Source: Bacillota bacterium
GTDB lineage: Bacteria > Bacillota > Dethiobacteria > DTU022
Assembly: GCA_033549065.1 (NCBI GenBank)
Contig: JAWSUE010000001.1
Coordinates: 23,898-60,943, forward strand
Direction: 5' to 3'
Length of the DNA: 37,046 nucleotides
Shown: in pieces, positions 1,589 through 28,146 of the stretch
Layout: the number at the start of each line of letters is the position of its first letter
Numbering within the stretch: the first letter of the stretch is position 1
Notes under the pieces: generated by a model
Told to the model about the DNA's origin: nothing
The model's database searches: none
What the model saw: the letters and a program-made list of their open reading frames with translations, nothing else
Program-made: the position numbers and the translations under genes

Positions 1589-2818
1589 TTAGAGAAGTAG
1601 ATTCTTTTCCATACTTAAAACTGCTTCCTGAATATCTTTCCGGTGACCAAAAGCACTGAGCCGGAAATAGCCTTCGCCTGATGGTCCAAAACCTGAACCG
1701 GGAGTACCGACTACATGCGCTTCATTTAATAATTTATCAAAAAACTCCCAGGAGGTAAGGCCATTTGGAGTTTTCACCCATAAATATGGAGCATTTTCCC
1801 CTCCATAAACAGTAAGGCTGAGAGCCTGTAGCCCTTCGCGAATCAGCCGTGCGTTTTTCATATAGTAGGCAATCAGCTGGCGACATTCCTTGAACCCCTG
1901 ATCGGAGAGTACAGCCAGGCCTCCATATTGTGCAATATTCGATGCCCCGTTAAAAAAAGTAGTTTGTCTGCGAAGCCACATCTGGTGTATTTCTTCTGGT
2001 TCGCTGTTTTCAGACAAAAGGGCTTTTGGAACTATCGACCATCCCAATCTGACTCCGGTAAATCCTGCAGACTTAGAAAAACTGTTTATCTCAATTGCAC
2101 AAACTTCTGCTCCTTCAATTTCATAGATCGAGCGGGGCAAAACAGGATCAGAAATGAATTCAGAATAGGAAGCATCAAATATAATTATTGCCCTTTTACT
2201 CAATGCATAATCGACGAATTTTTTCAACTGAGCGTGAGTCGCAGCTGTGCCGGTGGGGTTATTGGGGCTGCATAAATAGATCAAGTCTGTTTTTACGGCA
2301 GGAGGTTCAGGGAAAAACCCATTTTCCCTGTTGCAGACCATATAAATAAAACCACTGTAATTTCTATTTTTTCCATCGTAGTTACCGGAGCGACCGAATA
2401 TAACGTTGGAATCGACATAAACTGGATAGGCAGGATCTTGAACCGCGATTACACTATCTTCACTGAACAGTGATTGAATATTCCCCGCATCAGGCTTGGC
2501 ACCATCGCTGATAAATATATCATCGGGGTCAATATTTATTCCTCGTGATACATAAAAATCGGCCAGTTTTTGACGAAGTTCTTCTTCGCCCTGCTCATCA
2601 CCGTAACCGGAATAGGTTTCAACGTGGGCAAGACGCTCCACTCCAGAGTGCAACCCTTTTATGACAGTGGGAGTGAGCGGCTCAGTGGTATTGCCAATGC
2701 CCAAACGGTGTACCCTGATGCCTGGGTTTTCCTGTTGAAATTGGCTTACCCTTCGGGCAATTTCAGGAAACAGGTAGCTGCTGCCAAGTTTTCTGTAATG
2801 CTCATTAATTTTTGCCAT
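1589..2818 (-). CDS. dapL: LL-diaminopimelate aminotransferase
   Basis: A 409-residue class I/II aminotransferase (fold type I). Its expected reaction is direct transamination of tetrahydrodipicolinate to LL-diaminopimelate with glutamate as donor, bypassing the succinyl or acetyl DapD-DapC-DapE steps. Diagnostic features: N-terminal INEHYRKLGSSYLFPEIARR followed by RLGIGNTTEPLTP, the SDGAKPDAGN cofactor segment, the CSPNNPTGT motif, and the PLP lysine in NSFSKSAGFTGVRLGW. ATG at 2818 follows a GGAGG 11 bases upstream that lies inside the end of dapA. The gap to dapA is only 3 bases, so the two are translationally linked. Its presence between dapA and lysA is the signature of the DapL variant pathway of many Clostridia. 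An epimerase (dapF) would still be needed and is not in the window. Confidence 0.93.
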   Translation of the reverse strand: MAKINEHYRKLGSSYLFPEIARRVSQFQQENPGIRVHRLGIGNTTEPLTPTVIKGLHSGVERLAHVETYSGYGDEQGEEELRQKLADFYVSRGINIDPDDIFISDGAKPDAGNIQSLFSEDSVIAVQDPAYPVYVDSNVIFGRSGNYDGKNRNYSGFIYMVCNRENGFFPEPPAVKTDLIYLCSPNNPTGTAATHAQLKKFVDYALSKRAIIIFDASYSEFISDPVLPRSIYEIEGAEVCAIEINSFSKSAGFTGVRLGWSIVPKALLSENSEPEEIHQMWLRRQTTFFNGASNIAQYGGLAVLSDQGFKECRQLIAYYMKNARLIREGLQALSLTVYGGENAPYLWVKTPNGLTSWEFFDKLLNEAHVVGTPGSGFGPSGEGYFRLSAFGHRKDIQEAVLSMEKNLLL

Positions 2819-2821
2819 AAC

Positions 2822-3721
2822 TTATTTAGCCTCCGCAATGTCAAGATCTGACATTGCCTCCCTGATTACTTCGTAATTTTCCTTGATATCCAGGGAACAC
2901 ATGGGCAGGCGGAAAGACTCCTGGCACCAACCTTTCATTGACATGGCTGTCTTTATAGGGATCGGGTTTGTCTCCACAAAACAGGCTTTGAAAAAAGGCA
3001 TCAACCGGCTTTCCAACTCCCGTGCCCGATGGAAATCGCCGGAAAGTGCACTGTGAACCATCGTTTTCATTTGGCGGGGTATCAAGTTCGCAGCGACAGA
3101 GACCACCCCGTTGCCACCGGCTTCAATAAGATCTACAGTCATATTATCATCTCCACAGAGAACCACAAACTCATCATGCCGCAGGTTAATCAGATTCTTC
3201 ATCTGAATCAGGCTGCCTGATGCTTCTTTTACCCCGACAATGTTTTTATGTTCATTCATCAGCCTGAACAGCGTATCATTTTCCAGATTAACTCCGGTAC
3301 GACTCTCGATATTATAAAGTATACAGGGAATGGAAACCGCTTCGGCAATAGCTTTAAAATGAAGATATAACCCTTTTTGAGTCGGTTTTACATAGTAAGG
3401 GTTAACAAGTAAAACTGCATCGACTCCGGACTGTTCAGCATGCTGCGAAAGCTGGATCGCTTCACTTGTGGCATTACTGCCTGTACCGGCAATCACCGGC
3501 ACTCTTCCGGCAGCATATTCAACAGTCAACGCAACCACCCGATCGTGTTCATCATGAGTAAGGGTAGAGCTCTCACCGGTTGTTCCACAGGGAACCAATC
3601 CATCTATACCCGACTCTATCTGATATTCCACCAAACGTTTAAATGCTCCAATATCTACAGCTCCCGTCGAGGTAAAAGGGGTAACGAGTGCTGTAAAAAC
3701 ACCCCTGTAAATATTCCTAAT
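2822..3721 (-). CDS. dapA: 4-hydroxy-tetrahydrodipicolinate synthase
   Basis: A TIM-barrel lyase of the DHDPS/NAL family that condenses pyruvate with aspartate semialdehyde. Visible: FTALVTPF at the N-terminus, the GTTGESSTL loop, the catalytic tyrosine in CILYNIESRTG, and the Schiff-base lysine in GVKEASGS. Length is normal (299 residues). Start choice: a perfect GGAGGTG ribosome site at about 3727-3733 is followed 8 bases after GGAGG by ATT at 3721, giving MRNIYRGVFTALVTPF, which matches the normal family N-terminus. That ATT shares one base with the dapB stop (ATTAG), a classic coupling overlap. A TTG at 3736 and GTG at 3730 are in frame but lie before or inside the ribosome site and have none of their own. 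I infer AUU initiation. Confidence 0.93.
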   Translation of the reverse strand: MRNIYRGVFTALVTPFTSTGAVDIGAFKRLVEYQIESGIDGLVPCGTTGESSTLTHDEHDRVVALTVEYAAGRVPVIAGTGSNATSEAIQLSQHAEQSGVDAVLLVNPYYVKPTQKGLYLHFKAIAEAVSIPCILYNIESRTGVNLENDTLFRLMNEHKNIVGVKEASGSLIQMKNLINLRHDEFVVLCGDDNMTVDLIEAGGNGVVSVAANLIPRQMKTMVHSALSGDFHRARELESRLMPFFKACFVETNPIPIKTAMSMKGWCQESFRLPMCSLDIKENYEVIREAMSDLDIAEAK

Positions 3722-4478
3722 CGTCTCCACCTCCAATTAGTGATTGAATCATATCCTCCAGATTATAAAAGCCTTTTCGATCTTTAATCCATTCAGCGGC
3801 CATCAGTGCGCCAACAACAAAACCGCTTCGGCTGCGAGCGGAGTGTTCGATTATTAGTGAATCTTCTTCACTGTCGAAAATCACCCGGTGGGTACCGGGT
3901 ATTTCGCCACCCCTGGTTGAAGAAATATGCAGCTCTGTTTCTTTGATTGCACCTGAAGGCGTTCGATCAAGAATAGACTCTTTTCTATCCAGAGTGGATA
4001 GCAGAATATCGCCAAGCATACCTGCAGTTCCGGAAGGACTGTCGGCTTTGTGACGATGGTGGTATTCATGGACCATTACATCATATTGGGAAAACCGGTT
4101 CATAATCATTCCGGCCTTTTTAACAAGACTAAAAAAAATGTTAACTCCCAAAGAAAAATTTCCTGACCAGATCAAGCCGATCCCGCTTTTTCCCACTATT
4201 TCTGCAACCTCTGCCATATCGGAATACCACCCTGTGGTGCCGATAACTGCCGGGACCTTCAGTTGACCGTAGAGCCTGATATTATTCTTGACAGCCTCCG
4301 GAATAGTAAAATCTATTATAACATCAAGGGGAAGAGAATCAAGGGAAAATTCATCAGCAGTTACGGCTTCATGCTTGCTGAAAGGGTCGATAACAGCACC
4401 AACTTCATGTCCACAGGCAATAGCTTTGTTTCTGATCAACTCTCCCATCCGTCCAAATCCGGCTATACCAATTCTCAT
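3717..4478 (-). CDS. dapB: 4-hydroxy-tetrahydrodipicolinate reductase
   Basis: A 253-residue NAD(P)H-dependent reductase giving tetrahydrodipicolinate. The N-terminal Rossmann motif GIAGFGRMGELI is visible, then IDFTIPEAV, GTTGWY, and the family signature EYHHRHKADSPSGTA with the catalytic histidine pair and lysine near residue 145. ATG at 4478 is chosen because it begins exactly at MRIGIAGFGRMG and has GGGAAGG about 13 bases upstream; the open frame extends 26 codons further but that part has no family similarity. First gene of the lysine operon, divergent from the DUF3786 gene. Its leader is under 130 bases, too short for a lysine riboswitch. Confidence 0.93.
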   Translation of the reverse strand: MRIGIAGFGRMGELIRNKAIACGHEVGAVIDPFSKHEAVTADEFSLDSLPLDVIIDFTIPEAVKNNIRLYGQLKVPAVIGTTGWYSDMAEVAEIVGKSGIGLIWSGNFSLGVNIFFSLVKKAGMIMNRFSQYDVMVHEYHHRHKADSPSGTAGMLGDILLSTLDRKESILDRTPSGAIKETELHISSTRGGEIPGTHRVIFDSEEDSLIIEHSARSRSGFVVGALMAAEWIKDRKGFYNLEDMIQSLIGGGDD

Positions 4479-15160: not shown

Positions 15161-15625
15161 TTACTTTGTGATATCTTCTTCCAGTATATCTTCACGTTCA
15201 AATAATTTGATTGCCTTCTTCAGCAATATCAACAACTGCTTCCGTTCATCTTCCGGAACTTTGGAGAGATAAAGTGCAAGCAGCAGGTTTCGTTGTTCTT
15301 CCACTTCGTTTAAAACTTTTAAACCCTTGGGAGTAATTGAAATCCATACCTGCCGGCGATCTTTTTCCTGACGCTCCCTGTTTACCAGACCCATTTTGAA
15401 TAGCCTGTTTATTAACGCTGTAACCGCGCTTAAAGTTACTCCAAGCATGTGAGCCAAAAATGAAGTATTACAAGGATTTTTGCGAAGAGCCCGCAGAACG
15501 ATAAACTGTGTATCGGTGATCTCGTCAACAGTGTAGCGATTATGCAAAACCCGCACCCTATATATTAACCGGCTGAACACCAGATCAAGCTCTTTTATAT
15601 ATTCAATGAGACCGTCGCTGCTGAT
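15161..15625 (-). CDS. MarR-family transcriptional regulator
   Basis: A 139- to 154-residue winged-helix regulator of the MarR family. The DNA-binding helix is near CNTSFLAHMLGVTLSAVTALINRLFKMG and the wing contains the family residues RQEKDRRQVWISITPKG. Flanking helices form the dimer interface. Start: GTG at 15580 lacks a ribosome site and would remove the first dimerisation helix. A strong AGGAGGAG at 15633-15640 is followed 9 bases after AGGAGG by ATC at 15625, in frame, adding SSDGLIEYIKELDLVFSRL, a normal MarR N-terminus. I infer AUC initiation. It has its own promoter and a palindromic site at its transcription start, so autorepression is likely. The target genes and ligand are not evident. 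Confidence 0.85.
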   Translation of the reverse strand: MSSDGLIEYIKELDLVFSRLIYRVRVLHNRYTVDEITDTQFIVLRALRKNPCNTSFLAHMLGVTLSAVTALINRLFKMGLVNRERQEKDRRQVWISITPKGLKVLNEVEEQRNLLLALYLSKVPEDERKQLLILLKKAIKLFEREDILEEDITK

Positions 15626-27221: not shown

Positions 27222-28088
27222 TTACTTCAAAAGTTCTATAAGATATGCTCTCAGCGCGGGAGCCAAATCTTCTCTCCTCAATGCATATTCGACAATTGCT
27301 TCCAGGTAGCCAAGCCTGTCGCCCACATCATAGCGCCTGCCTTTAAAGGTATAAGCCCATACCGTTGATTTCAAAGCCAGGTTATTTAATGCATCGGTTA
27401 ATTGAATCTCTCCACCGGAACCGGGGATCGTTTTTTCCAATATATCAAAAATCTCTGGATCAATGATATAGCGGCCTAAAACTGCAAGATCTGATACTGC
27501 ATCTTCCCTCTGCGGTTTTTCTGTAAGCTGCCTGACTCTGACTATATTTCCGATTTCACCGCCGGAATCAACTACACCGTATTTATGAACATTTTCCCAT
27601 CCAACTTGCTGGCAACCTAAAATGGTTTGCCCTTTATCTGAGTATATCTCTGCCATTTGACCGATCACAGGCTTCTCGGAATATACAATATCATCGCCTA
27701 ATAGAACTGCAAATGGATCGTTGCCGATAAATTTTCTGGCACAGAGAACTGCATGTCCTAAGCCCAAAGGTTCTTTTTGACGTATATAAAATATATTAGC
27801 CATCTCACTGATAGATTTTATTTCTGATACTTCACGGTCTTTGCCTTTTTGTCCGAGAAACATTTCGAGCTCGATATTATAGTCAAAATGATCTTCAATT
27901 GCCCTTTTATTTCGACCGGTAATGATCAAAATATCTTCGATGCCTGCCTCTACTGCTTCTTCAACAACGAACTGGATGGTCGGTTTATCAACAATGGGCA
28001 GCATCTCCTTGGGCATCGCCTTGGTTGCCGGTAAAAACCTGGTTCCCAGGCCGGCGGCAGGAATGACCGCTTTTTTTATTTTTGTAAT
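27222..28088 (-). CDS. galU: UTP-glucose-1-phosphate uridylyltransferase
   Basis: A 288-residue nucleotidyltransferase that makes UDP-glucose for polysaccharide and glycolipid synthesis. The signature AVIPAAGLGTRFLPATKAMPKEMLP lies at the N-terminus, with IDKPTIQFVVEEAVEAG, LGLGHAVLCAR, LLGDDIVY and FKGRRYDVGDRLGYLEA following in the usual order. Start: GGGGGTG is followed 8 bases after GGGGG by ATT at 28088, giving MTKIKKAVIPAAG, the normal GalU N-terminus. The in-frame TTG at 28103 and GTG at 28097 lie before or inside that ribosome site and have none of their own. I infer AUU initiation. A -10 hexamer at 28147-28152 is the likely promoter. Confidence 0.95.
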   Translation of the reverse strand: MTKIKKAVIPAAGLGTRFLPATKAMPKEMLPIVDKPTIQFVVEEAVEAGIEDILIITGRNKRAIEDHFDYNIELEMFLGQKGKDREVSEIKSISEMANIFYIRQKEPLGLGHAVLCARKFIGNDPFAVLLGDDIVYSEKPVIGQMAEIYSDKGQTILGCQQVGWENVHKYGVVDSGGEIGNIVRVRQLTEKPQREDAVSDLAVLGRYIIDPEIFDILEKTIPGSGGEIQLTDALNNLALKSTVWAYTFKGRRYDVGDRLGYLEAIVEYALRREDLAPALRAYLIELLK

Positions 28089-28146
28089 TGGTAACACCCC
28101 CAAATTCCATATATATAACTATTGTATTGATTAAACCCGGATTTTT

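Follow-up and report, generated by a model that had tools for sequence, protein, structure and literature searches.

The dapA gene in the window, a stretch of 37,046 nucleotides that is part of contig C1 of a draft genome (G000; 2.39 Mb, 61 contigs), is best read as being translated from an AUU codon at 3721-3719, a reading to which we assign a probability of about 0.8. AUU is a known kind of start, and the points of interest in this case would be the conservation of AUN at the position over many species and the lock placed on the codon by an overlapping stop.

The dapB-dapA-dapL cluster and the candidate AUU start

The genes dapB, dapA and dapL follow one another in this order on the minus strand. 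The dapB gene (4-hydroxy-tetrahydrodipicolinate reductase) lies at 3717..4478 with an ATG at 4478-4476, and its product scored 158.2 bits with TIGR00036 (cut-off 122). The dapA gene (4-hydroxy-tetrahydrodipicolinate synthase), counted from the proposed ATT, lies at 2822..3721 and encodes 299 residues; the protein translated from a TTG further upstream scored 371.8 bits with the equivalog TIGR00674 (cut-off 206.15). Next in the cluster is dapL (LL-diaminopimelate aminotransferase, 1589..2818), which scored 567.6 bits with TIGR03542 (cut-off 364.7).

After an in-frame TAA, the dapA frame reads TTG GAG GTG GAG ACG ATT AGG AAT ATT TAC AGG GGT GTT. When the TTG directly behind the TAA (3736-3734) is taken as codon 1, the GTG (3730-3728) is codon 3 and the ATT is codon 6, and the frame has no canonical start codon other than TTG and GTG ahead of codon 35. 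The initial annotation had described a perfect GGAGGTG ahead of the ATT, with the GTG inside the ribosome site and the TTG before it, and all of this was read in the DNA: GGAGGTG is found at 3734-3728, where it doubles as Gly-Gly codons of dapB, and 8 nt separate GGAGG from the ATT. The described overlap of the ATT with the dapB stop, as ATTAG, was also found. The 3' end of dapB is GAC GAT TAG, the TAG (3719-3717) and the ATT have base 3719 in common, and 5 nt (3721-3717) belong to both ORFs. Because the dapB stop takes its first T from the third base of the codon, no ATG, GTG or TTG is possible at 3721-3719. The source genome is a draft in 61 contigs, so the ATT could in principle be an assembly error for ATG, but an ATG here would abolish the dapB stop, and eleven other genomes have ATC or ATT at this codon and lack an ATG at the codon before it, which makes such an error scarcely credible.

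The genome sequence covered yielded no 16S tail. With a generic tail sequence in its place, the duplex with GGAGGTG had an energy of -14.0 kcal/mol, and the best site before NTG was stronger than that of dapA in 12% of 793 genes. The spacing from GGAGG to the start peaked at 7-9 nt in the genome (475 genes in 837 kb), and an in-frame NTG was present in 39 of 63 cases at 7 nt, 45 of 74 at 8 nt and 29 of 55 at 9 nt. Since 8 nt is among the commonest spacings of the genome, and since orthologues keep ATN or GTG at this place, the ATT behind GGAGG is more than chance.

Translated from the ATT, DapA aligned without gaps with DapA of PDB 5f1v, presumably a Campylobacter protein, from residue 2 onward in both (KNIIIGAMTALITPF vs RNIYRGVFTALVTPF). 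The earlier claim that the ATT gives the usual DapA N-terminus is right, with the refinement that the product exceeds the short MFxG form by about three residues. A start at the second ATT (3712-3710) would yield a short MYRG N-terminus, and the ACG at 3724-3722 sits 5 nt from GGAGG, so each of these near-cognate codons has something in its favor. However, the second ATT lies 17 nt away from the site, and orthologues have a codon for Ile, Val, Thr, Leu, Arg or Met at its position, while the ACG position is free to vary (TCG, AAA, AAG, ACT, GCA and others), and we give very little weight to a start at either codon.

The proposed dapA start codon among orthologues

Orthologues of dapA were collected by searches of 60 relatives, 43 family genomes and GTDB contigs (best 80 of 85). 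When fragments without the N-terminus had been dropped, 29 distinct upstream regions, the window included, were obtained at a threshold of at least 75% identity. The genomes compared are drafts and the titled close relatives are nearly all metagenome assemblies; among the matches listed, the closest titled DapA relatives were from Syntrophomonadaceae and other Bacillota metagenome assemblies. Five of the 29 regions (L005, L014, L017, L023 and L032) apparently start at codon 3 with TTG or ATG, with the site further upstream, and two (L022 and L092) had no dapB match upstream. The data below refer to the remaining 22 regions.

Codon 6 was ATC in 12 of these regions, ATT in 2 (window included), ATG in 7 and GTG in 1, and GGAGG or GGGGG stood exactly 8 nt ahead of it in 19. 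The codon of the window thus aligns with ATG (7) or GTG (1) in 8 of the 22 regions, an alignment of the kind that the initial annotation had named as informative. Codon 3 was GTG in 19 regions and GCG, TTA and GTA once each, and codon 1 was TTG in 10, TCG in 8, ATG in 2, and CCG and CGG once each. These counts bear on a start at the TTG, which would make the protein five residues longer. The TTG is the first canonical codon past the in-frame stop and the choice of the ORF listing, but its position is occupied by TCG, CCG or CGG in 10 of the 22 regions and the closest GGAGG upstream of it is 18 nt away, and initiation there is very improbable.

In twelve regions, the window included, codon 6 is ATC or ATT and codon 5 is not ATG. 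Two of them (L020 and L021) have an ATG at codon 9, which is 17 nt from the site, and L010 has no ATG, GTG or TTG from the upstream stop through to codon 12. L018 (G032) repeats the overlap with dapB as ATTAA, the dapB stop again beginning on the third base of the codon. The position of the dapB stop relative to codon 6 ranged from -8 to +14 nt in 21 of the 22 regions and was -37 in L113. In L114 (G064), an in-frame TAA is present at codon 5 and an ATG at codon 6, and therefore the dapA start is not before codon 6 there. Two ATC regions, L008 and L112 (G033 and G066), have an ATG at codon 5. The dapA start has seemingly shifted to the ATG at codon 6 in L114 and to that at codon 5 in L008 and L112.

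Pairwise amino-acid identity among the 22 regions was 0.32, 0.43, 0.82, 0.10 and 0.36 at codons 1-5, and 0.29, 0.82, 0.46, 0.63, 0.74 and 1.00 at codons 7-12. The conservation of Val at codon 3 (0.82) is explained by the ribosome site and to the overlapping Gly-Gly codons of dapB, whose own identity was 0.91 and 0.74. Conserved sequence shared by relatives upstream of the ATT, which had been named as evidence against the proposed start, was not detected in the dapA frame beyond what dapB explains.

A protein tree of 29 rows was made from the sequence from codon 10 on. The ATC region L015 was nested in a supported clade whose remaining five members, L114 among them, have ATG, and so the ATC most simply replaced a true start. 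The ATC group needed a minimum of 5 changes on the tree and the ATG group 4, with the branch of the window itself weakly placed. Codon 6 has therefore probably switched repeatedly between ATG and ATC, as would be predicted were it the start in all of these regions.

GGAGGTG as ribosome site or as start

The GTG at 3730-3728 could itself be the start, used by ribosomes finishing dapB and needing no usable Shine-Dalgarno helix, with codon 6 as an internal Ile codon. GTG is a canonical codon, it is present in 19 of the 22 dapA regions, and a GTG occupies the same place ahead of korB in 29 of 30 loci. In addition, codon 6 specifies Ile in the five relatives that apparently start at codon 3, and an Ile codon at this position may therefore also be internal. 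However, the first G of the GTG is the last G of GGAGG, and start and site would compete for the same bases. The letters of the GTG are largely fixed by the Gly-Gly frame of dapB, and GTG is nevertheless replaced by GCG, TTA or GTA in three regions. An identical in-frame GTG also stands three codons ahead of the infC ATT in 7 of 30 loci. Moreover, raised IF3 is reported to lower re-initiation without a Shine-Dalgarno site (PMC2268962), which, as far as that report describes it, is somewhat against re-initiation at the GTG.

The same module elsewhere in the genome was also investigated, in a sample of 60 stretches (1.24 Mb with the window; 966 ORFs). In-frame GGRGGTG was found near 18 ORF starts, and in 14 of them a canonical start follows 2-4 codons on, so that the GTG of such a module normally belongs to the ribosome site. 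The other four modules belong to dapA, galU, korB and a small membrane ORF with no Pfam match, and in each of the four ATT or ATC stands at exactly +3. With an ATH background of 7.8%, simple arithmetic gives a chance of about 4 in 100,000 for four of four, or 5 in 10,000 without dapA. A stricter ORF threshold left 14 modules, of which dapA and galU were the two exceptions. In the related genome G006, NTG was present at +2 to +4 in five of six modules, and the sixth had neither NTG nor ATH at +3. Among 38 modules in family loci, 13 had NTG and 25 did not, and of the latter 24 had ATH at +3 and one had GTA; these loci were picked for containing dapA, infC, korB or galU and are not independent. 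On this evidence a start of dapA at the GTG is unlikely, and the GTG was judged unused. The ATT start proposed in the initial annotation is supported by its spacing, by the codons of orthologues and by the module elsewhere in the genome.

Other candidate AUH starts

In infC, ATT was present in all 30 family loci examined (of 35 places found), with GGAGGTG ahead in 29. Two further candidates lie on the minus strand of the window. The first is galU (27222..28088; ORF 27222-28118), in which GGGGG ends 8 nt before an ATT at 28088-28086, and position 1 of TIGR01099 falls at residue 4. In 27 of 28 relatives, ATG (23) or GTG (4) is found one codon after the ATT position; the 28th (L245 of G014) has no NTG from the stop to codon +11 and reads CCG ATC ATC TCA. 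The galU ATT is thus one codon earlier than the start of its relatives and not aligned with it, which counts against an AUU reading. The second is a MarR-type regulator (15161..15625) with an ATC at 15625-15623 behind AGGAGGAG and with GGAGG 9 nt upstream. It has no ATG, GTG or TTG until codon +15, and a start at +15 may still suffice.

The korB gene of the same genome (L298:9199-10011, plus strand) has an ATC that overlaps the korA TAA as TAATC. The aligned codon in 30 loci, its own included (L298, L199-L228), was ATA in 18, ATG in 8, and ATC, CTA, GTA and CCG in one each. The 8 ATG codons lie within TAATG and the 18 ATA codons within ATAG, which looks as though the codon were dictated by the korA stop. 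A GTG was present at -3 in 29 of the 30 loci, two of which have CTA or GTA in place of ATN. A GTG start of korB is quite possible, and both the 29 GTG codons and the loci with CTA or GTA fit it better.

Other candidates were found outside the window. A GNAT acetyltransferase (L290:6858-7379, minus strand, G000) has an ATT behind GGGGGAGG and lacks any NTG within 40 codons, and position 1 of its Pfam model falls at residue 7. An S1-domain RNA-binding protein (L280:13199-13612, minus strand, G000) has an ATC, and its next NTG, at +10, already lies in the domain. The S1-domain gene of G006 (L266:5756-6169, plus strand) has this ATC as well, though other NTG codons exist there, and the start context ATC AAG AAA is common to these two genera. 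The nusA gene of G015 (L318:15635-16888, plus strand) has an ATC, with the next NTG at +31. In G065, an ATT behind a strong site and with no near canonical codon was found in an ABC ATPase (L330:7257-8012, plus strand), a DUF2284 gene (L327:15840-16379, minus strand) and a large protein with a B12-binding domain (L321:10181-11929, plus strand), and a response regulator is a further candidate. Four ATC candidates of G065 (HepT-like, 4Fe-4S, DUF169 and CCG/4Fe-4S) form an odd cluster within 7 kb of contig C6 (L320:5856-12186). They count as genes because each matches a Pfam family over the cut-off. Canonical codons are located 3 to 20 codons upstream of the four: three have NTG at -9 or at -3 and -12, and the CCG gene has one only at -20. 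The strongest single cases, with no canonical codon ahead of the conserved domain, were the GNAT, S1-domain (L280), nusA, ABC ATPase and DUF2284 genes.

Frequency of candidate AUH starts in the family

A first count showed no excess of ATH behind strong sites (12 of 422, or 2.8%, vs 1.8-3.2% in five control classes). A tighter count gave 11 of 352 for ATH vs 9 of 1,092 for five NNH classes, with one gene counted doubly and some of the hits not starts. A slot test gave 9 of 60 in G000 (expected 4.7, P = 0.04) and 9 of 35 in G065 (expected 2.3, P = 0.0004), 2 of 20 in G006, 3 of 15 in G015, and 1 of 22 in the order-level controls G038 and G047 together. By another ORF rule, the result for G000 was 7 of 53 (P = 0.12). 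As judged by eye, MurG of G038 and two of the three G015 hits have other plausible starts. In 50 kb of E. coli there was one strong site and no slot. When loci from other phyla served as a mixed control, the count was 9 of 33 (P = 0.00005); one repeated gene, present in five loci and dapB-like by look, accounted for seven of these hits, and the other two were ORFs that looked spurious by eye. Because this control gave false positives, the slot P values cannot separate the family from other bacteria.

In a comparative scan, 92 genes of G000 had an orthologue starting with NTG behind a site. ATH behind a site, with no other sited NTG, was seen only in dapA (four comparisons) and dapB (one comparison, in which ATG follows at once), and some other codon was at that position in 16 comparisons. 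In the reverse direction, ATH was found in none of 87 genes. That the scan yielded dapA and, trivially, dapB argues against AUH starts being very common. It missed korB, probably through the ORF score threshold; in galU the start of the relatives is one codon later.

The excess of ATH behind strong sites in the family over other bacteria was not robust. The single cases with domain support suggest that the lineage may use AUU or AUC starts repeatedly. In this Syntrophomonadaceae-like family, AUU and AUC, and in korB mostly AUA, might form a standing minor class of start codons (about 0.5-2% of genes), compensated by strong GGRGG sites and fixed in operons by an overlapping stop, with starts drifting among AUG, AUC, AUU and AUA. 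We put this forward tentatively, as something possible though on balance doubtful.

Proposed initiation at the dapA AUU

GGAGGUG in the last codons of dapB would pair with the 16S tail and place the AUU in the P site, where the ordinary initiator fMet-tRNA(CAU) could pair with its first two bases. The DapA N-terminus would then be Met-Arg-Asn-Ile-Tyr-Arg-Gly. One initiator tRNA gene was found (L134, 5293-5369; anticodon CAT), in which the 1-72 mismatch usual for initiator tRNAs was recognized by eye. A special initiator tRNA was considered, but the CAT gene was the sole initiator found in a search that covered part of the 33 tRNA genes.

Ribosomes terminating at the dapB UAG would already be on the site, and re-initiation by them probably supplements or replaces fresh initiation. 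Translational coupling is reported to require an overlap or a very short distance (PMC10666635), and the dapB/dapA pair fits this. The yield from AUU would be lower than that from AUG and would be expected to drop as IF3 rises. IF3 has been reported to repress non-canonical starts (PMC5472188), AUU and AUA starts of S. aureus to reach about 10% of the AUG level in poor medium (PMC13009471), and an engineered AUU start to be usable in clostridia (PMC11040787). From the literature on AUH starts, IF3 and coupling, together with the overlap, low, IF3-sensitive and dapB-coupled synthesis of DapA would be expected.

Comparison with known systems

No AUU start of dapA was found among the literature matches listed. 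Gene finders are usually restricted to ATG, GTG and TTG, and as a result such starts are shifted or genes are truncated. A core biosynthetic gene with an AUN start, once GUG, across many species would offer a natural series on the cost and retention of AUU and AUC, and the list of candidates makes the frequency of AUH starts outside model bacteria directly testable. As a general phase rule, a canonical start is impossible wherever the third base of the start codon is also the first base of the upstream stop.

As is proposed for dapA, Streptomyces sigR keeps a non-canonical start, GTC in 32 of 34 species behind AGGAGGTG; this sigR start is repressed by IF3 (PMC5472188). According to the same report, its codon is GTC or GTT, it encodes a stress regulator, the start sets a protein ratio and it is experimentally proven, whereas the dapA start is proposed from sequence. 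E. coli pcnB and Borrelia pncA (PMC13398362) are genes other than infC with an AUU start, as dapA would be, and no operon overlap is mentioned for either in the accessible text. The S. aureus genes cvfC1 (AUU), ccpN (AUA) and citZ (AUA) resemble dapA, as read here, in that they have AUH starts in Bacillota and are conserved in relatives (PMC13009471). An extended site was predicted for infC, cvfC1 and ccpN of S. aureus and the starts were studied by Ribo-Ret and reporters; in contrast to dapA, no overlap with an upstream stop is described for these genes in the accessible part of that report, which does not mention dapA. In infC, which encodes IF3 and starts with ATT, AUA or ATC, an Ile codon likewise stands behind a strong GGAGGTG. 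The infC start serves the self-control of IF3 (PMC5472188), whereas dapA is a metabolic gene whose putative start overlaps the upstream stop and varies among ATC, ATT and ATG.
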